This document shows positions 23,464 to 62,667 of a stretch of 64,000 bases of DNA, piece by piece. This DNA is from Rhizophagus irregularis. Its lineage: Eukaryota > Glomeromycota > Glomeromycetes > Glomerales > Glomeraceae. The position numbers and the translations under genes are program-made. The stretch is taken from assembly GCF_026210795.1 (NCBI RefSeq), contig NC_089456.1:3102501-3166500 (forward strand), given 5' to 3'. Each line of letters opens with the position of its first letter. Position 1 is the stretch's first letter. The notes beneath the pieces are model-generated. The model was not told the DNA's origin, did not search any database, and saw nothing but the letters and a program-made list of their open reading frames with translations.

Positions 23464-25668
23464 CAGTCGACTCTGGATATAACGAACCTTCCATTCCAGG
23501 AGATTTGGTTCGGTATAGGATGAGTTCGTTATATAATATACACATTTTTATACTGAACTGTTCGGTATATAAAATTAACCAATAAAAATATAAACATGTG
23601 ACAGTTCGCAATAATTTATTATTATACAATATTTATGATATTTTATTTATTATTATATTATATGTAAAGTATATTATATACAGGAATTATTGTTCAATAT
23701 TATTGTGAAAGTAATTATGAATATCAACTTGTTTTAAATTTTCCACAATTAGCAATTTAATTCGCTTATGCAGCCCTCTTAAAACTTTTAATTCGTTGTT
23801 TACTTTACCAAATTCTGGTCCTTGTTCATACAAAAATCTCATTATTTTATTTGCAGCATCATCTGCTTCTGCTAAACTAACTTTTTCCAATACAGGTAGA
23901 GATTCATCTTCATCAATTAAAAGCTCTTCTTCATTATCTGCATTTAATATAGTATTAATTATTTCACGATCAATAAGTCCTCCTTCTGGCATTTCATCTT
24001 CTATATGAAGATACTCATATGCATTAAGATTACTTTTTGGAAGTTGAGCAATTAGCATATCGAGTTCCTCAATTTTTCTATCTAGTATACTAAAAATTTA
24101 ACATGTGCATTAATAAAATTTCGTAATAATTTCTACATATACACTTTGTTATATCATACCTATCAGAAATTACTGAATCATAATCTTCAGGAATTTCTTC
24201 AATTTCATTATTTGGTGGAAGAATACCTGTTTTTTTCCAGCAATTTGAGATTGTTTGGGATGATACCATAGACCATGCTTCAGCTGCATTTTGCAAAGCA
24301 TCATAAATTGTATAATCATCAAGTTTTTTTACAATACCATCCTGCATATTATCATATGCATTAATCCGATTTTGAATAAAAAGTCGTTTATAATGACATT
24401 TAAATGAATGAATTATGCCTGCATCACATGGTTGAAGTTCAGTGGTGGTATTTGGTGGTAAAAATTTCACTTCTACACTATCTAATTTTTCCCGAGTTTC
24501 GTCTAAAATAAGATGCACTGATGCATTATCAATTAATAGAATGATCCTTCTATTTTTTTTTTTCATTATTTCATTAAGTTTAAGAAGAACCATATTAAAA
24601 ATACTAACTTGCATCCAAGCTTTATTGTTCCAAAAATAATAAACTGGGAGGTTCTTATAATTAATATTTTTCATAACGCGTGGAGCTTTGTATTTATGAA
24701 TAAATGAAAGAGCCATTTTTTCTGTCCCAGTTGCATTTGTCGCACAAAAAATTGTAACTCGAGATTTTTCTTTCTTATGTCCTGATAAAGGACCACGTGC
24801 TAATACCCTAGAAGGTTCCATTTTCCAGAAAAGGCCAGTTTCATCGCCATTCCAGATATCCTCAGGCTTGTAAGGTGCAAGAATCTGTTGTAAAGCAAGT
24901 CGGTCATGTTCTATTGATTCAGCAGAAGGTGCACTTGCGGCTTCACCTTGCTTCTTGTATTGGCGTAAACCATGGCATTTTTTAAAGCCAGTTAACCACC
25001 CGTCTGATTGATGAAAATCTTCTATTGAAAACTGGTTAGCAAAGTAACTCGCCTTTGTTTTTAAAATATTACCATCAATATCCTGTTTCGTATTAAGTGC
25101 GTTGTCAACCCAAAGACTGAGTGCATTTTCAAGTTGTGGCCACTTTGGACCACGAAATTTTTTAATACTTCCTTGACTTTCCGTAATTGAAAGCCATCGC
25201 TCTTTTTCTTTCAAAATATCAGTTATTGTTGACTTTCCAACACGGTATTGTTGTGCAAGACTAATGTTAGAAAGGTTAGGATTTTTTTCCTTTGTCTCGC
25301 AAAGTTCACGTTTTTGTGCAGCAGAAAGGATAACTCTCTTTCTTGACATATCGGAATTTTTAAACAAATTTTTTCCGTGCTCTGATAAGAAAAGATTATC
25401 CGCGTCTTGGTAAAATAGATTTTCCGTGTCTTATGCGATTTATAGCATGATTGGTGTAACTAATTTATCACGTGATATTTCGGTATATCAAATATATAGA
25501 TTAATATAACCGTTCGGTTAAAATAGGTTCGGATGCGGTATATAGCATTTTATTATATAGTTTCGTTATATCCAGAATAATTAATTATAAAAAATTCGGG
25601 TCTGTGATATTTGGTTCAGTATATCAAAATTTCGGTATATACAGGTTCGTTATATCCAGAGTCGACTG
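23464..25668. mobile_element. Tigger/pogo-type DNA transposon, apparently complete
   Basis: The terminal inverted repeats begin CAGTCGACTCTGGATATAAC at both ends and match for 26 bases. TA lies on each side (23462-23463 and 25669-25670), the target duplication of the Tc1/mariner superfamily. The 2,205-base element carries one minus-strand transposase with an intact spliced frame. Intact termini and ORF suggest recent activity; this is inference. Confidence 0.93.
23687..25367 (-). CDS. Tigger/pogo-type transposase (two exons)
   Basis: Exon 1 is 25367-24160 and exon 2 is 24089-23687, with a GT-AG intron of 70 bases, giving 536 residues. The N-terminus has CENP-B-type helix-turn-helix content (MSRKRVILSAAQKRELCE, then ISLAQQYRVGKSTITDIL), followed by a second DNA-binding region (WLTGFKKCHGL). 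The DDE_1 core has catalytic aspartates in IWNGDETGLFWK, ILLIDNASVH and ELQPCDAGIIHSFK. The C-terminus, from exon 2, is acidic and helical. The start may be Met 1 or Met 7 (MSRKRV). No stop or shift interrupts the frame. It should bind the TIRs of 23464-25668 and cut and paste at TA. Confidence 0.92.
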
Positions 25669-27725: not shown

Positions 27726-28384
27726 TGCATCAATATAAGCATATTTGTTAGAGCTTGCTGAACATATTGATGTATTCTTAACATTAATTGAGTTACTACT
27801 ATAAGAATAAAAGCTTGATTGGTATTTGAATCATATGGAATAAGTTTAGCAATACCTTTTTTACTTTGATTATATTCATCAACAACATCTTTAAGTTTCT
27901 TTCACATATCTATTCCATTTTTTTGACCTAAAGTTGCATTTCTATATAATGTAAAAAGATACTGTACTGCTTACTGATCAGGATTTATTGAACAATCTGC
28001 TAAAGTCAACTGTAAATTATCTTTACTAGTTCAAGCTGAAATTTAAAATAGCGATATGCTGATGCAGCATTATACCCTTTTTCAAATAATGAATTATATA
28101 GTAATTTTGTTGAACTTGAAACTGATCTAAATGATAAAGAATGAAATGAATTAATTGGATGATTGTGGTTAAAACTAAGTTTAACTATACATGAATGTGA
28201 TAATGTTAAGTCTTTAGTTTAAACTTTATTAAGAAGTAAAATGGCCAAACATCCTATATTATGATTTCTTGAATTATTTTCACTTTGTTGCTTTACTTTG
28301 GTTTGTTTTCTAATACTTGCAATATCTGTGTATTGATAGTAAAAATCTTTTCTATACAATACTTTTTTTATTTTAACTGCTTTA
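27726..28384 (-). pseudogene. MULE-type transposase remnant, downstream half
   Basis: Minus-strand frames read KKVLYRKDFYYQYTDIAS, then FNHNHPINSFHSLSFRSVSS, then EKGYNAASAYRYFKFQLEL and KKGIAKLIPYDSNTNQAF, with several stops between. The His-Asn-His and spacing pattern is like the FAR1/FLYWCH-type zinc region in front of MULE transposases. The upstream half lies 8 kb away at 36455-36732. Joining the two across 28385-36454 restores one continuous frame at the junction (RLAKAVKIKK), which shows where the 8-kb element inserted. Confidence 0.65.
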
Positions 28385-28559
28385 CACAGGTCGAACAGAT
28401 GTCATTGTCGCAAAATTTGCCTGGAATTTTTCTGGCAAATTGAGAATTATCCCAGTAAATTGGGGTAAATTGTGTTACAATTTTGGGATAATGGAGGACT
28501 TACAATTTGGCAAATTTTGTCAAAATGGCGGCATTCCTACAGAATTCCTAATTCAAATG

Positions 28560-29330
28560 TTGAGAAATTTTTCAGTAAATTATCATTAAATTGTGGGAAA
28601 TTTTAGGCAAATCTTTAGTAATGATATGCAAACAAAGTGCAAATTGTGGTGAATTTAGTTAAATTTTTAGTAATTTTATGCAAACGTAATGTAAATTGTG
28701 GTGAATTTTAGGCAAATTTTTAGTAATTTTATGCAAATGTAATGCAAATTGTGGTGAATTTAGTTAAATTTTTAGTAATGATATGTAAACGAAGTGCAAA
28801 TTGTGGTGAATTTAGTTAAATTTTTAGTAATTTTATGTAAAAGTAATGCAAATTGTGGTGAATTTAGTCAAATTTTTAGTAATATTATGTAAACGTAATG
28901 CAAATTGTGGTGAATTTAGTCAAATTTTTAGTAATTTTATGTAAACATAATGCAAATTGTGGTAAATTGTAGTGTATTTTTAGTAATGTTATATAAATTG
29001 TTGAAAATTTAGGTGAATTTTTCAGCAATGTTGTGCAAACGTAATACAAATTGTGGAAAATTGTGGTGAATTTTGCATTTTTTCGGTAAATGTTGGCTAA
29101 ACTTTTGATAATTTAGTGAAATTTAGGATAATTTTGGACAATTGAATGAAAATGTTTTACTGATTTTGGACAATTGAGTGTAAACAGTATAAACACAACA
29201 TTTTCGGAGACAATTTAGTGAAATTTTGCAATAATTTTGGACAATTGAGTGAAATTTAGTAATAATTTTAAACAATTTAGTGTAAACGTTATAACAATTT
29301 AAAATATTGATTTAATAATTTTACATAATT
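28560..29330. repeat. Left subterminal minisatellite of the 8-kb element
   Basis: Imperfect 50-60 base units made of CAAATTGTGGTGAATTTAG and TTTTTAGTAATTTTATG with AAACGTAATG. Such subterminal repeats are common transposase-binding regions in large TIR elements; that role is inferred. Confidence 0.75.
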
Positions 29331-29374
29331 TATTACAATATTATTTATTAACAAATGCACAATTATTATTTAAC

Positions 29375-31310
29375 GGTGAGAATCTATATTAATCTATATT
29401 CATCAGATATCCAATGATCCATGGGTAATCCGCACCTCTAATTCATTCATGTATCTAATGTCCGATGCCAAAGTAGAAGCTGGTGAAAACCTACAAGAAG
29501 GAAGAAAAGAAACGTCAGTTAACGTTTCTTAAAAAAAATAATAATTAATTAAATTTCGCAACACAATGTTGCGAAACTCACTGGTTCATTTTGATTTCCA
29601 TTATCCAAACGTCCGGAACCTACAAAAAGTAAAAAAGAAATGTTAGGTAATGTTTCTTTTAAAAAAAAAAGAATAAAAATTAAGTTTCGCAACACAATGT
29701 TGCGAAACTTACCAGTTCGTTTCGATTTCCATTATCCAAATGTCCGGAACCTACAAAAAGTAAAAAAGAAACGTTAGCTAATGTTTCTTTTAATAAAAAA
29801 AAACAAAAATTAAGTTTCGCAATGTAACATTGCAAAACTTACCGGTCGTTTCATTCATTCCAATGTTCGAAACCTACAAAAAGTAAAAAAAAACGTTAAT
29901 ATAAACGTTTCTTTTAATAAAAAAAAACAAAAATTAAGTTTCGCAATGTAACATTGCGAAACTTACCAGTCGTTTCCATCATTCTAACGTCTGGAACCTA
30001 CAAAAAGTAAAAAAGAAACGTTAATATAAACGTTTCTTTTAATAAAAAAATAAAAATTAAGTTTCGCAATGTAACATTGCGAAACTTACTGGTCGTTTCA
30101 TTCATTCCAACGTCTGGAACCTACAAAAAGTAAAAAAGAAACATTAATATAAACGTTTCTTTTAATAAAAAAAATAAAAATTAAGTTTCGCAATGTAACA
30201 TTGCAAAACTTACCGGTCATTTCCATCATCCTGACGTCCAGAACCTACAAAAAGTAAAAGAAAGAAACGTTAGTTAACGTTTCTTAAAAAAAAATAAATA
30301 AAAATAAAGTTTCATAACACAATGTTGCGAAACTCACTGGTTTGTTTCGAACTCCATCATCCAAACGTCCGGTGTTCCTACAAAAAGAAAAAGGAAACTT
30401 AGAAATGTTTCCTTACAAAAAAAATTTAAAAAATATTTTTTTTAAAAAAGTTTCGAAGCGAAAAATGCTTTGAAACTTACCCTTTCAGTTCCTTACTTCC
30501 TGAAGTCGAATACTGAAAACCTACACAAAAGAAAATAAAGGATCGTTAAAAACGTTCCTTATAAAAGTAAAAAAAAAAAATTTAAAGTTTCAAAGCAAAA
30601 CGCTTCAAAACTTACCATCATTTCATTTCCTCGTTTCAGTAAAAGCATTGAAAATCCTACAAAAAAGAAGAAAGGAAACGTTAGAAACATTTTCTAAAAT
30701 AAATTAAAAAAAAAATCAATAAGTTTCGCTTCAAAACTTACCAATTCCACTTCCAAAATCGAATACCAAAAGACCTATACAAAAAAAAAATAGGAAACGT
30801 TAGAAACGTTTCCTTACAAAAAAGAATTAAAAAAAAGATTTTTTAAAAAGTTTCATAACGAAACGAAACTTACCCAACGTTCCGAACACTCCGATCCTAC
30901 AAAAAGGATAAAGGAAACATTTTCTAAACGTTTCCTAATAAAAAATTAAAAAAAAAATTGAGTTTTGAAGTGAAAGTGTTTCACTTCGAAACTTACCATA
31001 TCGAAGCAAATGCTTTGAAACTTCATAGTTTACCGAACTTGAAGACAAACCATACTCCTCTTCGAAGGTTTTCCTTCACCTCGCCTACTAAACATAAGAA
31101 TTCCACGCATCGACCCAAGAATGAATAGACCATATCTTGGGACCCTTCTCAACAATGCGAATTTTACGGCAAAACTCATTTTCCGAAATCAAATATTTTA
31201 AATATCTACAAAAAAACAAGTATAGGAGTCAGTTCCTAAAAGATATTAAAAACACAATTTTTAAGAAGTTTCGAAGCGTTTTGCTTTGAAACTTACCATT
31301 ATTTTTCTGA
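29375..31310 (-). other. Spliced-looking transcription unit with a tandem array of hairpin introns
   Basis: On the minus strand, twelve consecutive units of 85-106 bases each begin GTAAGT or GTGAGT and end TTTTTGTAG or similar. They are separated by eleven mini-exons of 23, 33, 41, 40, 40, 31, 31, 31, 31, 38 and 38 bases. Examples of units are 29491-29581, 29620-29712 and 29751-29842. Each holds two palindromes: AAGTTTCGCAA...TTGCGAAACTT by the donor and GAAACGTT...AACGTTTC near the middle. A thirteenth unit lies near 31205-31298. The outer exons look coding: about 31200-31090 reads CRKIRIVEKGPKIWSIHSW, and 29485-29400 reads LASDIRYMNELEVRITHGS then a stop. The spliced mini-exons have stops in all frames (checked across six of them), so the array looks like runaway intron duplication in a gene carried by the element, or a non-coding RNA gene. 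Confidence 0.6.
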
Positions 31311-31317
31311 AAGACGA

Positions 31318-31520
31318 TTCTGGGAAGGGGAAAGGGAAGGGAAGGGGAGAACGAAAGAGAAAGGGGGAAAACGAAATGGAAAGGGAGAACGAAGGAGAAA
31401 AGGGAGGGGAACGAAATGGGAAGGGAGAACGAAAGAGAAAAGGGGGAAAACGAAATGGGAAGGGGAGAACGAAAGAGAAAAAGGGAAGGGAACGAAATGG
31501 GAATGGGAAAGGGTGAAAGA
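31318..31520. repeat. G/A-rich minisatellite
   Basis: GGGAAGGGGAGAACGAAAGA-like units in tandem. The plus-strand Lys/Glu/Arg/Gly-rich open frame is a by-product. It lies upstream of the intron-like array as transcribed. Confidence 0.8.
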
Positions 31521-31798
31521 AATTGAAAAATCGTGAGAAAAAATTAAGCTTTTACTAAAAAAAGCTTAATTTTTTTTCGCTATACCTAGAGATGGGGGTT
31601 AATTAACCATGGTTAATTAACTGCGGTTAATTAACGGTTAATTTGGTTAATTATAATTAAGCAAATTTGGTTAATTAATGGTTAATTTGGTTAATTATAA
31701 ATTAGCCAATTAAAAGAAGTGATCACAGTCACGTGACCGATTTGCTGATTTTTATCGATCTTTTTTTCAATAATTTTTTTTTATTTTTCAATTTAACA

Positions 31799-34156
31799 AT
31801 GACTAAAAAAAGGTGCTGTTTGGAAACATTGGATTATTATTACACAAAACCAAACAGAAAGTAATAAAAATAACTCCCATTCTACTGTACAATGTAATTA
31901 TTGTTCTAAAGTTTTGAATAGAGCTGTTCCTGCACGAATGCAAAATTATCTTGATAAAGAATGTCTAGGAGCACCGGATAATGCAAAGTCTAAAAAAAAT
32001 ATTAATTTACAAGGTTCCACAACTAGCACTATTTACACTCCAACTATTACTCCAAATACTACTCATACAAATATACCTGTAAAACGAATTAAAATAACTA
32101 AAACATCTAAGATTGAGAATTTCATTGATCGTATAAGCGAAGAAGAACAAGACGACCTTGAATTTCAACTAGCACAAGCATTATTTTCAGCTGGAGTACC
32201 ATTTGCCTTTGTTGAAAATCCGCTTGTCATTCAATTTTTTAAATGTCTTCGGCCATCCTTCAAGTTGCCAAATAGGAGAAAACTTGCTGGAGATTTATTA
32301 AATGATGTTTACGATGAAGTAAAATTACAAACTGATGAACAAATTTCCAAAGCAAAGACTCTTTGTATGGTTTCTGATGGTTGGTCTAATATTAATCGAG
32401 AATCAGTACAAAATTTTATCATTTGTACTCCTAAACCAGTTTTTTTTAATGCTACATTTTCAGGTGAAGAATCCCATACAGGAGAATGGATTTCAAATGA
32501 AATTATTCAACAAATGGAAGCTATTGGTGTTCAAAAATTTTCAGCTGTTATTACGGATACAGCTAGTGTAATGAAATCAGCATGGAGACGAATTAAGGAA
32601 AAATATTCCAATGTTGTTTGTCTTGGGTGTAACTCTCATGTTATTAATCTTTTAATTGGGGATGTTTTAAAGATTGATGAAATTAAAACCATAGTTGAAA
32701 ATTCTAAAATGATATGGTGGCTGTCACCTATAAACCACACTAATATTAAGTGACTTCAAATTTTTATAAATTGTAAATTGAATAGTAAAAAGAAAAAACT
32801 AAACCGATAAAATGATATAGCAACATGTACTGAACATTTCTATCGGATTATTTTATAGAATTTAATAAGAATTTTAATTAATATTATGGGCTAAAGTTGG
32901 ATAATTTTAATAAGTAGCAATAATAAAAATATAAAATTTCGGACTAGTTTTCATGTAATTTTTATGGATTTTACAAAAATTCCATGGAAATCCATAAGAA
33001 TTCCATGTAATATGGCAAAAAAAAATTTTGCCGCTCACGCGGCAATTAATATTTTGACAAAGTACTTTAAAACATAAGTTACACAATATAAATAAATAAA
33101 TTTCAAAATTTCGGACTATTGTTGTTTATAGATGACAGCCACCATAGTAAATTATTTTAAATCTCATGTACAAGCAGCAGCAAAATTAAAACGTATTCAA
33201 GGTGAAAATTATAATAAAGAGATTGCGTTGGTTTTACCAGTACTTACACGATGGGGATCACATCTTAGCTGCTTTCAGTCACTTCAAAAATCAAAAACTG
33301 CTCTTGAACAAACATTAATGGATCCTGATATCCGTAAAAAAATAAATAATACAGTAAGAAATTTTGTATTATCGGAAAATTTTTGGGATATGTTGGATAC
33401 AATTATAAAATTTTTAGAGCCAATGGTTATAGCGTTAAAATTGTTTGAATCAGACACATCTACTCTTTCAACTGTTTATTTTCACTTCAAAAAATTAATG
33501 CATCGAGTTAGTGAAATCTCTTGTAATTTTTCTAACAATATTCAACAACTTGTTCAAAAACGGTGGGATTATACATACCATCCTGTTATGATGGCTGCTT
33601 ATATGTTAGATCCATGTTTTTAGAAGAAAGCAAAAATACTGATATAGAGGCAACGGGATATAGAGAATTCACAGAATTCACAAGTAAAAGGTTCGGTCAA
33701 GAGGAATCTGTGATTATGTTTACAGAATTAGTAAAATTTCATCAAAAAAATTCGCCATATGATAATAAAACGATTTGGTTATCATCTACTAATCTTAGTC
33801 CGTCTGTATGGTGGCAATCTTGGCCAAATAGTAGCCTTCAACAACTAGCTATTAAGATTCTTTCAATTCCAACATCATCCGCCGCCGCTGAAAGAAATTT
33901 TTCTACGTTTGGGTTTATTCATAATAAAATCCGTAATCGATTGCAAAATGAACGTGTTAAGAAGTTGGTTTATATTTACAGAAATCTTCAGTTGTACGAA
34001 AAGGGGTTAAAAAGAAAATTAATACATGATCAGCATAATGATAATAACAATAATGATATAAATAATAATAATAATACTGGTAACGATAACAATAATGATG
34101 ATGATGATAGGATATTCGGGTTAGAATTAAATATTACGGATTTAGCAACTGAATAA
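31799..34156 (+). pseudogene. hAT transposase, broken at three places
   Basis: Domains appear in order. A BED-type zinc finger (GAVWKHW, CNYCSKVLNRAV) starts near 31810. A hAT core follows (CMVSDGWSN, GCNSHVINLLIGDVL), and further on LPVLTRWGSHLSCFQSL. The C-terminal dimerisation region is near 33810-33980 (WWQSWPNSSLQQLAIKIL, SSAAAERNFSTFGFIHNKIR). Lesions: a one-base shift in the A-run after the start ATG at 31799, an MITE insertion at 32715-33144, and a one-base shift in the T-run near 33617. The last codons run into an Asn/Asp-rich tail from an AAT repeat. It is too damaged to make a working enzyme unless the two homopolymer shifts are sequencing errors. Confidence 0.88.
32715..33144. mobile_element. 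Tc1/mariner-type MITE inside the hAT transposase
   Basis: The ends TGGTGGCTGTCA and TGACAGCCACCA are exact inverted repeats that continue imperfectly. TA flanks both sides (32713-32714 and 33145-33146). Taking it out with one TA rejoins the transposase frame exactly (ENSKM|IVNYFK), so it is a recent insertion. No ORF. A short GCCGCTCACGCGGC hairpin lies near 33030. Confidence 0.92.
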
Positions 34157-34351
34157 TAAATAAATTTTGATAAATATAAAATAAAAATATAAGTTTAATT
34201 AAATAAATTATAAAAATTATAAAAATTTGTTATAATAGACCGGAAATTATAATTGGGTTAATTAACAGTTAATTAACGGTTAATTAACGGTTAATTAATC
34301 GGTTAATTAACCCAAATTATAATTAACCATTAATTTACCATCCTTAGCTAT

Positions 34352-34392
34352 ACCGCAGCAAGCGCAGCTGAAGCTGCGCCTGCTGCGGTAAT
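34352..34392. repeat. GC-rich hairpin
   Basis: ACCGCAGCA pairs with TGCTGCGGT and, inside, GCGCAGC pairs with GCTGCGC around a TGAA loop. It directly abuts the right target duplication of the hAT and belonged to the 8-kb element before that insertion. Confidence 0.75.
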
Positions 34393-34849
34393 TATTAGTA
34401 ATATCACATGATACACGTGATATATATTTTTATATAAATAGGGGCATTTTCCCCGAAAAAATTTTTTTTTTATTATAATTTTTTTTGATAGATGTATATA
34501 TATACTTATATATATACATATATATATATCTATCTAATAACTTTACGAAAAGTCCCTCCTCTGTAAACAGGTAAAGGCCATAAAGTACCTATAGAGGGGA
34601 GAGCCATTGCTGCTCCCTCCGCCTGTTTATAGTGACAAAAAGAGGGAGTCTTCAGTAGTAAGGTTTCGTATAAATTAAACAACACATCGTGTTGATACAT
34701 TGTTAATATTAACAATGTGAATTTAATGTTAAATAATGCGTTAGAATATAAATATTATAAATTTAATAATGTCTGTAATTTTACAAATAAATAAAAATTA
34801 TCCTAACAATTTTAATGTAATTAAGTGTAATGCTACATTATCCTGTGTA

Positions 34850-35260
34850 ATTGTAGTATTTTTTTTGTGTTTTTTAGTGCAATTCTGCGTTTTTTAGTGC
34901 AATTCTGCGTTTTTAGTGCAATTCTGCGTTTTTTAGTGCAATTCCACATTTTTTAGTGCAATTCCGCATTTTTTAGTGCAATTTCGCATTTTCTAGCATA
35001 ATGTTACATAACACGAAATTTTCTAAAAAATATGATAATTGTGATACTTTTTAGTGTAATACTACATTGTCTAGTGTAATTGTGGTATTTTTTAGTGCAA
35101 TGCCGCATAATTTAGTATAGTGCTACATTTTTTAGTATAATTTAATGTAATGTGGAATTTTCCAAAAAATGTGATAATTGTGATGCTTTTTAGTGTAATT
35201 TGGTGAAATGCTACATTTTCCAGTGTAATGCCATATTATTGAGCATTTTCAAAAAAAAAA
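34850..35260. repeat. Right subterminal minisatellite of the 8-kb element
   Basis: About 20-base units TTTTTTAGTGCAATTCYGC repeated imperfectly, grading into AT-rich TTTTAGTGTAAT versions. It mirrors the placement, not the exact sequence, of the left subterminal repeats. Confidence 0.75.
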
Positions 35261-35559
35261 TGTAACATTTTAACATTCTGACGAAAGTGAAACATTTGAC
35301 CAAAAAAACATAAAATTTGCTAAAAATATGCAACATTTGACAAAAAATATAGAATTTTCATAAAAAAATGCACCATTTGCTAGGAAATTGGAATATTTGA
35401 CAAAATTTGATTTTAATTGACAATGTTATAACAATTTTATGAAATGTTGTTACAATAATATCATATTGGAGATAAAATGTGGCATTTTCATAAAAATGCA
35501 CCATTTGCAAGAAAATTGGAACATTTGACAAAAAAAAAGCAAAATTTAATTTTAATTGA

Positions 35560-36096
35560 CACAGGTCAAAAAGTGAAAAATCAGGCATCAATCAGTCACC
35601 AATCGGTCACCAATCAGGTACCTGATTGGTGACCGATTAATGCGATTAACATTTCGCCAAATACCGTCACCAATCAGGCAGTTTGCTAACTTTTGATCCA
35701 GTGATCAGAAAAGGATGAAATATAACTCATTGGAATCGTCTCAACAAGACGAATCTAATGGTAGTAAAATCGCATTTCTAGGATTAATACTTGATGAAAA
35801 ATTAAGTAAAATATAAAAATAAAAATGTATCATTTATATTTTATTTAATTTTTTATTAACTATTAATCCTAGAAATGCGATTTTACTACCACTAGATTCG
35901 TCTTGTTGAGACGATTCCAATGAGCTATATTTCATCTTTTTCTGATCACTGGATCAAAAGTTAGCAAACTGCCTAATTGGTGACGGTATTTCATTTGCAA
36001 AATGCCAATCAGGCACCAATCAGTCACCAATCAGTCACCAATCAGCTACCTGATTGGTGACCGATTGGTGCCTGATTTTTCACTTTTCGACCTGTG
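35560..36096. mobile_element. 537-base foldback element with the same CACAGGTC terminus
   Basis: Nearly the whole element is one inverted repeat: CACAGGTCAAAAAGTGAAAA at the left, inverted CACAGGTCGAAAAGTGAAAA at the right, and long CACCAATCAG arms. TGA flanks both sides (35557-35559 and 36097-36099). The uninterrupted site TTTTAATTGACAATGTTATA exists as a neighbouring repeat at about 35411, which confirms the insertion. The shared terminus suggests it is mobilised by the same transposase as the outer 8-kb element. Confidence 0.9.
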
Positions 36097-36454
36097 TGAC
36101 AATGTTATAACAATTTTATGAAATGTTATTACATTTGAGATAAAATGTGGAATTTTCATAAAAATGCACCATTTGCAAGAAAATTGGAACATTTGACAAA
36201 AAAAAAGCAAAATTTGATTTTAATGACAATGTTATAACAATGTTACGAAATGTTACAAAATGTTACATTTGAGATATAATGTAGCATTTTCCCAAATTTT
36301 CATAAAATTTGCTAAATCGTACGACATCAGAATAACGCTATTCCAAAAAAATCGCTCAGTAACGCAAGATTTTCCACAATTTCCCACCATTTTTCAGAAA
36401 AATGTGGAATTTGCATTTTTTGAATTTTGGACAATGGTGCCCCTTCGACCTGTG

Positions 36455-36732
36455 TTAGCTAATCTAACTCAATAAGTTGTTTTAGATTTTTCTTCAAATA
36501 AACCTTTTCATTATTCAATTTCATCTTGTTGTTTAATATTAATCCAACATATAATTTCAAATAAAAACTCTAGAACACCAAGAAATTCATCTAATGGTAA
36601 TAGTTTGAATTCTGTAATTTTATAATAATATTGCTCAGAAAAAATATTTTGTCATAATAATTCTAGTAATTGAGAAAAAGTTAATGAAGTATTTAATTGT
36701 ACTTCTAATAGATTATTATCATCATAAAACAT
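36455..36732 (-). pseudogene. MULE-type transposase remnant, upstream half
   Basis: The minus strand starts at a possible ATG (36732) and reads LEVQLNTSLTFSQLLELL, then a stop in place of Trp, then YYYKITEFKLLPLDEFLGVL, then further stops. It continues at 28384 and below once the 8-kb element is ignored. Confidence 0.6.
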
Positions 36733-38013: not shown

Positions 38014-40460
38014 ATGGTTGACTCTTACAATTGTTTACGTCTAAATAATAAACGCGTTTTCCAGGTTGAAGTTTATAAAGACAAGGACAGGCAGAAATTC
38101 TTCGAATTTGGTAATAAACAAATTCCATTTGTGAACTTTAAAGTTGGGCAACTCGCGAGGCTTATCTCTGTACAAGAAAAGTTTGAAGTTTCGAAGCTTT
38201 GGAAAGTTGACGTTGATAAGAGTAAGCTTAATCCTGGTTCTACTGACGATGACATTAAAGAACTTGGAGGCGTGTCTATGGAATTTGAACACAAATTTGA
38301 AAGATATTTTAAAGCTGATTGCGAACTTATGGATAACATCCACATCGTTGCTGTCGTCGAAACTACAACCACTGGTAAGTGTCTCCCAATGTTTTACCTC
38401 TCGAACAAGAAATTTTTAGTCGAAATATTTCGTCATTTATTAATAATATCGAATATGCTTTCTAACTGTTATTACAACCATTAGAGCTCGGGAGGAAAAG
38501 GAGAAACACGGAAGTAGAAAGTATAAAAATGTTCTTGTTTCTATACGTAGCTATATATTTCATTCTATCATTCTTACAAATGTTTCTCTACAGCAACAAG
38601 TAGAAAGAGAAGAGAATGGGCGGTTAATAGTACCATTAATAATGAAGTGCGTGGTTCAGTATACTTTGTTGATCCAACGGAAGCGAGTGGACCACTTTTT
38701 AACATGATTAAGAAAGGAGTATTTGTAGCTTTATATGGTGCACGGGCTTCTGGGAAGTCTACACGAGTGGATCAAGCTATGATTGAGTTGGAAAGCGAAG
38801 GCTATGTTTGCATTTAGTAAGTTCTATCTAGTAAATTGAATTCAGTATAACTTTTGCTTACATCTCTTTTTTTTCTTCGGAACAGTATATCCTTTGAAGG
38901 AGTAAATATGGATACCAAAGACATATTCTGGTCGTCAATAGGCACTAAACTTGCCATTAATGCTCCAAAATATTTTAAATTAAATGAAGTCAAATCTGCC
39001 GATGATTTCATGTTAAAGTTTCGGAAAAATGATTGGAAATCTGATGTTGTTCTCTTCATTGACGAGTGTGATACATTATTTGAAGCAAATGATGGCATTA
39101 GATCCTCATTCCTTGGAGCAATTCGTAACATTAAAAATTCAAAAAGAAACTATGCAATCTGGTCTTCTGTAGCCATCGGTCCTCTAAGTATTTTATTTCT
39201 GAGATCAGACAAAATAAATGTTTCTCCGTTCAACGTTAATGAGCCATTTAGGAACCCAAATTTCACTCTGGCACAAGTGGAGTCATTATATAAGGATTAT
39301 GAGGACGACGACAAATTAACCATTGTTCCGGAGGTCATTAAGGATATTTATGAACGGACGAACGGGTATGTGAAGCTGGCCGGAAGTAATATTAAATCAA
39401 TACTAAAATTTGTTTTTCTGTTATTTGACAGGCATGCTGGTCTTGTCTGCCTTTGTGGCAAGGCTATCAAAAATAACTTGGAAAAGAAACTTGACGAAAG
39501 AAGATGTCTTGATTTCACTCTCTGGTCAAGCTTTGTTGCCAGTTCACAACTGATGGATCGTATGATTATGTATAACACATTTAGAAATATGGTTTGCGAT
39601 CTCCTTAAGCCTGATGCTAAGGATGCTTTGGACCTTCTCCGGTCTGTATTTTTAGGATTGTTCGATTTTGTACAAATTTATGACGAAGAAGAAAGAAGAC
39701 TAGCAGATTACTTAACTGCCAAGGGGGTGCTCATGAGGGAAAATGAGAACAAGTTTAGTTACAGAATGTCGTCTATTTTTGTTGATGGATTGATTCGGCA
39801 ACGGGTTATTCCTGTATTGTACAAATCTCGCCCGACTGTTAAAGTTCCCAAAACTTCTGATGGCTTTCTGAAAATCCTTGACGTTTTAATAGAGGCCGTC
39901 CGTTGTTTTGATAAAACTATCATTCGTAATGCTTTTACCGATCATTTAAAACTGCACTTGTGAAAGTGGATGGTTGTCGTAATGTGAAGGTTCCTCGGGA
40001 GAGTGTTTATGATACAGAACTAATTAGAATCCTAGTGAACTGGATCGTCAAAGATAATAACTTCGAGGTCAATGGACAGTGCCATCTAATAGATCACGCT
40101 GGTAATGACGAAAAAGACAAACATTATTTTAGTGATATAATCATTGTGACTTCAAAACAAAAAGTTGTTCTTGAGCTTTTAGCATCAGCAACAAAAAATG
40201 AACTTAACGAACACTTTGAAAGGGTGCTTCATTATGCGGAAATGCTATCAGCAAGTGACATATGGATAGTAAATTTTTCATGTGAAGATGATGCAGCAAA
40301 GAAACCCCATTGGCCACCCAATGATGGAAACTTTGAGAGTGTGAATGTTGCTCATTTCTTTCACGACCAAAAGTTTGAAAATGTACGAATGAGCGCTCGA
40401 TATATATCTAGCCCTGGTACTTTTAGTTATATTACAGATCAAGTTATTCAATTACAGTAA
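38014..40460 (+). CDS. Crinkler-type (CRN) protein with P-loop NTPase and nuclease-like domains; one frameshift
   Basis: Exons 38014-38374, 38594-38816 and 38886 onward are joined by GT-AG introns in phase. The first exon resembles the ubiquitin-like header of Crinkler proteins (KLWKVDVDKSKLNP, DNIHIVAVV near its end). Exon 2 brings a Walker A motif (GARASGKST). Exon 3 brings Walker B (VVLFIDECDTLF) and a sensor region (YAIWSSVAIG). The C-terminal part has KVPRESVYD, then FSDIIIV and VVLELLA, like the restriction-nuclease-fold domain of this family. A stop at 39961-39963 comes from an apparent one-base loss in a short A-run, and the tail continues in another frame to 40460. The family is known as secreted or nuclear effectors; target and activity here are unknown. 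No signal peptide is evident. Confidence 0.8.
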
Positions 40461-61000: not shown

Positions 61001-61539
61001 ATTAGGTTTAGCCACTTTTCTGGTGATAAAATCATTTTGTTGCCTTTTTTTTCTATTTATATCTTTAGTTTAATTAGTGTGTAATTACAATAATTACACA
61101 ATCTATAAATAGAATTTTTAGGAAAATTGTTTGTAAAAATTTTTTTTTTTTTATTGTTGCTATTAATTGTTAGTTTAAAATTTTTAATATGTTGTTTTTT
61201 TTTATATATGTTAATACTATTTACCAATCAAAAAATGTTTACTCTGGAAAAAAAAATCTTATAAATTTGCAGTCAGAGGAAATTGTTTTTTTTTTTTCAT
61301 CTTTACATCCGAAAAATAAATAATTATTACCAAAAGGAATAATTTTTTTTTAAAAAAAATAAATAGTTACCTTGAACCGTTTTTTTTCGTGTTTAACAAA
61401 TTATATATTTTTTTTTTTACGAATAAAAAAGTAAAAAAAAAATAAAATAAAATAAAATTTAAATTTTTTTTTAAAAAAAAAAACTTTTTTTTCCAAACCT
61501 CTTTCCAAAACTTTTCCAAAAAACTTTTTTCTTTTAAAG
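55044..61539. other. Long AT-rich intergenic region
   Basis: 6.5 kb of A- and T-runs with TA microsatellites (57370-57390, 57680-57700, 59460-59600, 60440-60600). A minus-strand ATG at 56688 is followed by a good donor (TTGGGTAAGT), but no coherent protein follows. Two CACGTG sites lie near 58567 and 58750. It includes the promoter side of the MATA_HMG gene. Confidence 0.5.
56095..56232. repeat. 17-base minisatellite (ATTACCAATCTTGAAAA)
   Basis: Seven or so near-exact copies in tandem, from 56117 to 56230. Confidence 0.8.
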
Positions 61540-62667
61540 ATGACCAAGAAAACCTCAAAGAGATCCTCAGATACTAAAATTCGTAATATGAGACAAGGAC
61601 AAGTAAAGATCAAGCTTGACCTAAAAAAGCCTTCCCCATCTTCCCCACCTTTACCTCTTCCTTTCCCCCCTACTCAAAGGGTTGAACAAATTGTCGCAAA
61701 ACTTGTCGCAAAACCAAGATTGGCCAGATTTCCAAACGCTTTTATTATGTATCGTAATGAATATGTTCAATATTTGAAATCACAAGGTTATCATATTTCT
61801 ATGACCGAATTAAGTCCAATGATTTCAACATCTTGGAAAAAAGAGAGTGAATTTGTTAAAGAAGCTTACACTAAACTTTCAAGCGAAGCAGAGAAAATGT
61901 ATGTTCGTGATACTGGAAGTACGCAACAACAAATCAATTATAAATATTTACCAACTCGACCTACTTTATCATCAAAAAGTGAATCCAATGGAAATGGTCC
62001 TAAATTAGACGATCTTTCTGGTCAATCTAACCAATCTAACCAATCTCATCAATTCCAGAATCCTGATGATTTTTATAATATTAATAATATATATGACCGA
62101 TTATTTCAATATTCAATCCCATCAAATGGATTTCAAAGAAATTATTCTAATAAAGAACCTGAACAAATTCCTTCTTTCTCTATTGGTACCTCAGGTTTAG
62201 AAAAATATTCTCTTGATAATGTAACTCTTCCTCAACATGGTTCAATTCATTCAATTCCGCAGCAAGATTGTTTCCCGGATAACATTTTTCAATGTCAATG
62301 GTCTCCTAATATTTCCTCATCTATTCAACATAATAATCCTTCAGTATCTTTTGGTCCTTCATACTCTCCTACTAGTCCTACTTTTGATGATTTGATTAAT
62401 TCACCAATTATGGGATTTTCTTCATTAGAAGCTCAAATGTTAGAATCCATGTCCCCTTCTTCAAATTCTTCAATTGATGATATTTCTTCTTCAATTGATG
62501 ATATTTCTTTATTATTCTCACCAGAAATTGATGATGGTGGATTTTATGAAAAATCCGATTTTTCAACCCCTAATTTTACAGATTCTATAACCTGTCAATC
62601 CCCACTATCATCACCTTCTGGATTATATTTATATTCTGGACAATCATATCCTTCTTTCCAAAGTTAA
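61540..62667 (+). CDS. MATA_HMG-type HMG-box transcription factor
   Basis: A single exon, 375 residues. The HMG box spans about residues 45-125: ARFPNAFIMYRNEYVQYL, ISMTELSPMISTSWKKES, then VKEAYTKLSSEAEKMYV. This is the pattern of fungal mating-type HMG boxes (the MATA_HMG class), which bind bent DNA in the nucleus. A Lys/Ser-rich tail precedes the box (KKTSKRSS, then PSPSSPPLPLPFPPTQ). The rest is a Ser/Asn/Gln/Pro-rich disordered region with SSIDDIS twice near 62470-62510. The ATG at 61540 follows a T/A-rich leader. Such genes are numerous in Rhizophagus and not all act in mating. Confidence 0.9.
   Translation: MTKKTSKRSSDTKIRNMRQGQVKIKLDLKKPSPSSPPLPLPFPPTQRVEQIVAKLVAKPRLARFPNAFIMYRNEYVQYLKSQGYHISMTELSPMISTSWKKESEFVKEAYTKLSSEAEKMYVRDTGSTQQQINYKYLPTRPTLSSKSESNGNGPKLDDLSGQSNQSNQSHQFQNPDDFYNINNIYDRLFQYSIPSNGFQRNYSNKEPEQIPSFSIGTSGLEKYSLDNVTLPQHGSIHSIPQQDCFPDNIFQCQWSPNISSSIQHNNPSVSFGPSYSPTSPTFDDLINSPIMGFSSLEAQMLESMSPSSNSSIDDISSSIDDISLLFSPEIDDGGFYEKSDFSTPNFTDSITCQSPLSSPSGLYLYSGQSYPSFQS

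Follow-up and report, generated by a model that had tools for sequence, protein, structure and literature searches.

On the minus strand of a window of fungal DNA, a dozen consecutive units with intron-like ends had been described, separated by exons of a few tens of nucleotides. The locus thus raises the question of whether these units are real introns, what kind of gene would carry them, and how so many came to stand in a row. The window is the whole stretch of DNA that was analyzed, 64 kb in length (C28:3102501-3166500), and all coordinates follow window numbering unless a contig is named; the genome searched comprised 146.7 Mb in 32 contigs. The host fungus is apparently a plant-root symbiont and a sequenced model symbiont.

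Thirteen intron-like units were found on the minus strand at 29491-31296. The textbook splice ends attributed to consecutive units by the initial annotation were present in every unit, as a GTRAGT donor (GTAAGT in 11 of 13, GTGAGT in 2 of 13) and a TAG acceptor. Its twelve units correspond to introns 2-13, but the total is 13, the leader intron having been missed. Likewise, of its length range of 85-106 nt, the lower bound was retained and the upper bound was corrected, as introns 2-13 measured 85-103 nt; the measured mini-exon lengths agreed with the range of 23-41 nt given there. The features of the array are as follows, in the 5' to 3' direction of the minus strand.

31320..31540, minus strand: CT-rich tract directly 5' of exon 1, with 40-bp tandem repeats at 31339-31508
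31297..31319, minus strand: end of exon 1, final three bases ATG; ATG followed by GTAAGT also starts many sister copies
31206..31296, minus strand: intron 1 (leader), 91 nt, donor at 31296 and TAG acceptor
30997..31205, minus strand: exon 2, 209 nt, between introns 1 and 2
30897..30996, minus strand: intron 2, 100 nt, donor at 30996 and TAG acceptor
30775..30873, minus strand: intron 3, 99 nt, donor at 30873 and TAG acceptor
30657..30741, minus strand: intron 4, 85 nt, donor at 30741 and TAG acceptor
30521..30615, minus strand: intron 5, 95 nt, donor at 30615 and TAG acceptor
30378..30480, minus strand: intron 6, 103 nt, donor at 30480 and TAG acceptor
30245..30337, minus strand: intron 7, 93 nt, GTGAGT donor at 30337 and TAG acceptor
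30121..30213, minus strand: intron 8, 93 nt, donor at 30213 and TAG acceptor
29998..30089, minus strand: intron 9, 92 nt, donor at 30089 and TAG acceptor
29874..29966, minus strand: intron 10, 93 nt, donor at 29966 and TAG acceptor
29751..29842, minus strand: intron 11, 92 nt, donor at 29842 and TAG acceptor
29620..29712, minus strand: intron 12, 93 nt, donor at 29712 and TAG acceptor
29491..29581, minus strand: intron 13, 91 nt, GTGAGT donor at 29581 and TAG acceptor
29582..30896, minus strand: 11 mini-exons between introns 2-13, of 23, 33, 41, 40, 40, 31, 31, 31, 31, 38, and 38 nt
29330..29490, minus strand: terminal exon, with the end of a 68-codon open frame and a putative 3' end

The terminal exon contains AATAAA at 29349-29344 on the minus strand, and the CT-rich tract 5' of exon 1 is a putative promoter or leader. 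The order of leader, introns, terminal exon, and poly(A)-like signal gives the region the layout of a gene.

The structure of the units was analyzed using 244 introns drawn from 25 arrays of the genome, with 5 of 30 loci dropped as duplicates of the same arrays. The 25 arrays contained 285 donor candidates, of which 41 were dropped because they had no acceptor under the rule applied. The accepted introns, for which donor and acceptor were search rules, measured 73-111 nt (n = 244). The typical intron formed two hairpins, one from the donor and one with a branch-point-like TAAC. As the 5' hairpin begins at intron position 2 or 3, donor positions 3-6 fall within the stem; in minimum-energy folds, position 5 was paired in 244 of 244 introns and position 3 in 239. 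Such a hairpin would hide positions 3-6 of the donor and might hinder splicing. The 3' hairpin lies near the intron end; TAAC is located in either the loop or the 3' arm of this hairpin, and a T-rich stretch and TAG come next. A YTRAY branch-point-like motif near the 3' end was found in 230 of the 244 introns, a count made without a chance control.

Compared with dinucleotide shuffles, the introns folded with a mean z of −4.9 (range −8.6 to −0.6; 61 introns, every fourth of the 244), while the mini-exons folded no better than their shuffles (mean z −0.03; 55 mini-exons, every third of 165). Moreover, covariation was determined across 55 dissimilar introns, in which 91.6% of the cells pair. The number of double-changed cells was 104, compared with 43.2 after shuffling and no more than 26 when the versions were slid; with 50 of the same 55 introns, five being omitted by eye, the corresponding numbers were 97 and 41.7. 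Compensation was clearest in the first stem, in its inner part (AU/CG and AU/GC types). When the 64-kb window was scanned for hairpin-starting GTRAGY, 10 sites were found, and all of them were minus-strand donors of the array; elsewhere in the window, the threshold was passed by 0 of 51 GTRAGY sites. Within the array, introns 1, 3, and 6 fell below this threshold and the other 10 of 13 passed, including intron 4, whose minimum-energy fold (−10.5 kcal/mol) is not two-hairpin.

Since the units are tandem and palindromic, and the subterminal regions of the transposons in which such units reside are likewise repetitive, the array could also be read as a palindrome satellite internal to a transposon, with a role at the DNA level (protein binding, cruciforms) and accidental GT/AG ends. 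Splice-like ends were counted throughout the genome. The strict 5' motif, GTAAGTTTCG N4-24 CGAAACTT, occurred 652 times, with 0 matches for the reversed control, and the 5'-type palindrome without the GT requirement occurred 947 times, with 9 for the control. From 652 against 947, up to 69% of the palindromes have GT before the arm, a few counting twice, whereas base composition would by our estimate give GT there in roughly a tenth. The strict 3' motif, GAAACGTT N2-8 AACGTTTC N6-24 TAGG, which places the T-rich stretch and TAG downstream of the 3' hairpin, was found 568 times (control, 0). Among the matches listed for C1, a strict 5' motif was located 82-103 nt upstream of 10 of the 34 3' motifs on the same strand and of 1 on the other, so that the two motifs co-occur at intron distance. 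In these motif tests, therefore, splice-like ends were commoner than chance, and not at the chance level that characterizes a satellite. In addition, the units are all oriented from the CT-rich leader toward AATAAA, and annotated proteins match the spliced product, as described below. Consequently, a satellite with accidental ends is considered improbable.

Two further counts were made with no donor rule applied. Among hairpins beginning with RAG, GT was kept before the arm in 238 of 246. The unit profile gave 261 matches, of which 190 were nearly full-length, and the donor in these 190 units showed G 98, T 99, A 67, A 99, G 100, and T 100 per cent. In the same family profile, several exon positions equaled the donor in constancy, and most changes occurred at CpG sites. 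Conservation within the family is thus weak evidence for splice-site selection, and an argument for selection from that conservation alone was rejected. Stronger evidence is that distant arrays with different exons exhibit the same intron plan and that GT was retained in the 238 of 246 hairpins.

The genome search for other arrays that the initial annotation had in view used the 3' half of the window array as its query; 40 of 425 candidates were scored, by our count 40 array places, the window included. In a second search, the query came from L084, a distant array; 40 of 368 candidates were scored, and by our count 33 of the places were new, while the 7 places common to both searches showed best identities of 71-74%. 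Both searches combined gave 73 candidate places with array-like matches, some of them only a few kb apart. Moreover, the unit model gave 43 matches (E ≤ 0.01) in 15 of the 15 fetched loci L079-L093, with mixed strands in 6. The window array belongs to a large class that recurs across the genome and is not a single oddity. Exon 2 was also considered as a captured host gene, as its 33-aa peptide matches 5 genome places; by coordinates, all 5 lie near family arrays or right modules (described below), and the candidate was rejected.

The arrays differed in size. Within the fetched stretches, the 25 arrays examined had 8-17 donor candidates and 4-15 rule-passing introns each. By eye, one exon/intron type with the same neighbors was present in 2, 3, 4, and 6 copies in L020, L015, L005, and L027, respectively, and L030 had 5 copies of that type plus one further unit. 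This difference in copy number between sister loci supports the proposal of the initial annotation that an intron had been amplified in tandem with the adjoining exon edge.

Hundreds of similar structured introns in one genome may also indicate true introner-like elements, in which each intron would be mobile by itself and the arrays would result from repeated insertions. Stable or symmetrical structure is a described fungal trait of such elements in the available part of the source (PMC8469720). However, the copies stand in tandem and include an exon edge, and among the matches listed for C1, 26 of 38 strict 5' motifs had a same-strand neighbor less than 1 kb away. Fourteen loci were sampled from the 652 matches because their matches looked isolated among those listed, although L090 had two strict matches. 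In 9 of these 14 seemingly isolated loci, at least two hairpin donors were found on one strand within 651-801 bp, and no clear dispersed single intron in a host gene was found among the 14. At L082, the hairpin-intron motif precedes a mitochondrial carrier family exon (3e-12), but by eye no open frame joins this exon to the preceding one. Independent insertion of each intron is thus considered very improbable. In this region (L082 with L093, C1:6266460-6267900), the hairpin-intron units just upstream of the exon are decayed, and the exon belongs to a mitochondrial carrier gene or to a fragment of one.

Whether the spliced array codes for protein was also considered. The spliced window array measured 946 nt, and its longest open stretch was 68 codons, which starts at the end of a mini-exon, reads across the last three, and finishes in the terminal exon; the array as a whole is not open. 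The statement of the initial annotation that stops occur in every frame thus applies to the spliced array as a whole and fails for the 3' mini-exons, which are open in one frame that matches annotated proteins. Three annotated R. irregularis proteins (103, 68, and 79 residues) match the spliced peptide with 83, 85, and 59% identity, in agreement with the Rhizophagus origin supposed in the initial annotation. As they match across the junctions, the deposited gene models presumably remove such introns; these proteins may be ab initio predictions, and the matches do not prove coding.

The open frame could point to a repeat-protein (micro-exon) gene, in which the mini-exons would code for short peptide repeats and the window copy would be decaying. 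The three annotated proteins run via late mini-exons to a common C-terminus, the 31- and 38-nt exon classes jointly restore the frame, and 68 codons are open in the window array. However, 16 of the 25 arrays had an unbroken run of four or more mini-exons at their 3' end, and when the exon order was shuffled in these 16, no array had a longer open frame than its shuffles (p < 0.05), the means being 47.6 codons for the real order and 50.7 for the shuffled order. Lengths of the 165 mini-exons were 1, 2, and 0 modulo 3 in 94, 42, and 29 cases, respectively. By eye, one subfamily had an out-of-frame shortening of the terminal exon and another had a different terminal exon, and no Pfam domain was found in P0001-P0003. 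In these tests, exon lengths and order did not keep a reading frame as in a coding micro-exon gene, and such a gene is considered unlikely; an essentially non-coding transcript is preferred.

The surroundings of the array were then characterized, and the features of the host transposon are as follows.

28382..28384 and 36455-36457, no strand: target-site duplication TTA, flanking the host transposon on the left and right
28385..36454, no strand: CACTA-like TIR element, CACAGGTCGAA / TTCGACCTGTG, with TIRs at 28385 and 36444
28588..29294, no strand: left subterminal tandem repeats (52-bp and related units), common to other left-end copies
31587..34346, plus strand: nested hAT transposon, with the 8-bp duplication GCTATACC at 31579-31586 and 34347-34354
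34430..34665, plus strand: right module, to the right of the hAT, with a TATA-like box and a folding block
34869-34996: right subterminal repeats of the host transposon
35560..36096, no strand: nested 537-bp foldback with TIRs of the same kind as the host transposon and the duplication TGA

The host transposon measures approximately 4.76 kb once the two nested insertions are subtracted, and the nested hAT exhibits the domains DUF659 (1.4e-23) and Dimer_Tnp_hAT (2.4e-12). The 26 bases of the left end had 80 genome matches with at most 2 mismatches (control, 0). The 3-bp duplication was perfect in 7 of the 8 other copies with both flanks read; the pair L034/L051 was without it. The TIRs, the TTA duplication, and the family-wide left ends confirm that the array is located inside a mobile element, as had been proposed. 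The host element is CACTA-like, and the 3-bp duplication, the CAC-start TIR, and the subterminal repeats fit CACTA/CMC. At L052 (C3:1064222), a left end was observed five bases from the apparent right end (CGACCTGTG) of another copy, in a head-to-tail arrangement.

In the right module, the block of approximately 110 nt downstream of the TATA-like box (34545-34665, plus strand) was nearly invariant across 15 aligned copies and folded with a z of −3.2. It is possibly a structured RNA encoded by the transposon. At the gathering score, no Rfam family was detected anywhere in the window, the right module included; the 13 weak Rfam matches of the module were each far below the cut-off.

No transposase of the host-transposon family was identified among the copies examined, and the host transposon is presumably non-autonomous. 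L077, in which the left end and the array lie approximately 6 kb apart, was considered as an autonomous partner and rejected, as no transposase-like ORF was present among the 15 listed; one L077 ORF was scanned against Pfam and gave no match. Another type of copy (L047, L049, L066, L069, L073, L076, and L078) shares the left end of the host transposon and has a different interior with coding-like minus-strand pieces, which gave no Pfam match above the cut-off. These copies are possible relatives of the autonomous element. One such piece scored in 150 places, many of them identical and by coordinates away from left ends, and thus resembles a different high-copy repeat.

Three other features of the window were recorded: a Tc5/pogo-like transposase ORF at 24093-25430 (minus strand; DDE_1, 4.8e-37), an apparent multi-exon gene to the right of the transposon at 38014-40458 (plus strand), whose ORF 38851-39960 has an AAA-like domain (3.1e-9), and a 403-aa ORF containing an HMG box (2.5e-8) at 61456-62664 (plus strand).

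The preferred explanation starts from what was observed directly, that is, the splice signals, the structure with its covariation, the variation in unit number, the transposon context, and the genome-wide recurrence. The array is probably the minus-strand gene of a CACTA-like transposon that is itself non-autonomous; this gene would be transcribed yet essentially non-coding, and would consist of U2-type structured introns amplified in tandem. Its transcription and the splicing of its 13 introns are what we infer from the sequence. Each unit would most likely be a functional U2 intron with a donor hairpin and a hairpin displaying the branch point. The module of intron and mini-exon (approximately 124 bp where the mini-exon is of the 31-nt class) would be won or lost via unequal exchange or slippage. 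Since every new module brings along a donor, a branch point, and an acceptor of its own, the host spliceosome could excise it. With the modules removable, the mature RNA would gain only 23-41 nt per unit, and the array would thus be tolerable. As splicing would take out approximately three quarters of each added unit, growth would be cheap for the transposon transcript and nearly invisible. The hairpins may persist by drawing donor and branch point together or by setting the splicing efficiency, and the array may help the transcript of the element to resemble processed host mRNA, for example in evading RNA silencing.

A broader reading is offered only tentatively and is itself doubtful: the arrays could represent a new class of mobile genes, in which tandem structured introns within transposons are selected for splicing, the transcript passes as host mRNA or the excised hairpins act, and neighboring genes possibly have a standing source of introns. 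Intron gain in eukaryotes is a long-standing question, and its known bursts have been described as dispersed insertions. Tandem growth within a transposon transcript, if true, would be a further route. Moreover, the motif copies, which number more than 500 and have diverged to graded extents, would permit tests of the effects of donor and branch-point hairpins on splicing.

Several known systems resemble parts of the array. In snoRNA host genes of the gas5/UHG type, poorly coding spliced exons surround structured introns. The array likewise exhibits poorly coding exons and structured introns; however, its hairpins themselves bear the splice signals, and no Rfam family was detected in the window at the gathering score. 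Schistosome MEGs consist of a long series of tiny exons; they encode secreted proteins, and their introns are long, reaching up to 5 kbp, as described in the part of the source consulted (PMC10526429). Serial tiny exons are common to both, whereas the introns of the array are short and structured and no sign of coding constraint was found. SP7 effector genes were also considered and rejected, since on the available part of their description they have only a conserved intron before repeats in common with the array (PMC11333574).

The host element resembles CACTA/CMC (En/Spm) transposons, for which TIRs, subterminal repeats of several hundred nt, and a 3-bp target duplication are described in the text available (PMC8978399); CMC and Plavaka elements are known from R. 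irregularis, according to a source likewise available in part (PMC11075540). Unlike CACTA/CMC, the TIR of the host element starts with CACAGG, not CACTA, and the cargo is an intron array. No title or abstract opening in the literature search, which was thin on subscription papers, dealt with tandem intron arrays in these fungi.

Fungal introner-like elements are near-identical spliceosomal introns whose secondary structure is stable or symmetrical (PMC4457414, PMC8469720, each in the part available). They are copies in unrelated genes, and within-gene tandem duplication accounts for less than 1% of single gains in Zymoseptoria tritici, as stated in the accessible portion of PMC4457414. On these partial accounts, the array resembles introner-like elements and the stwintrons of Hypoxylaceae in the many similar introns per genome and their stable structure; unlike introner-like elements, its introns are tandem, located in a transposon gene, and separated by mini-exons. 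The earlier view that the array is akin to yet distinct from dispersed introner elements thus holds, copy number and structure being common and the tandem, transposon-borne setting being different. Within the literature available, fungal introner-like elements are the closest known kind, here in a tandem and transposon-borne form.
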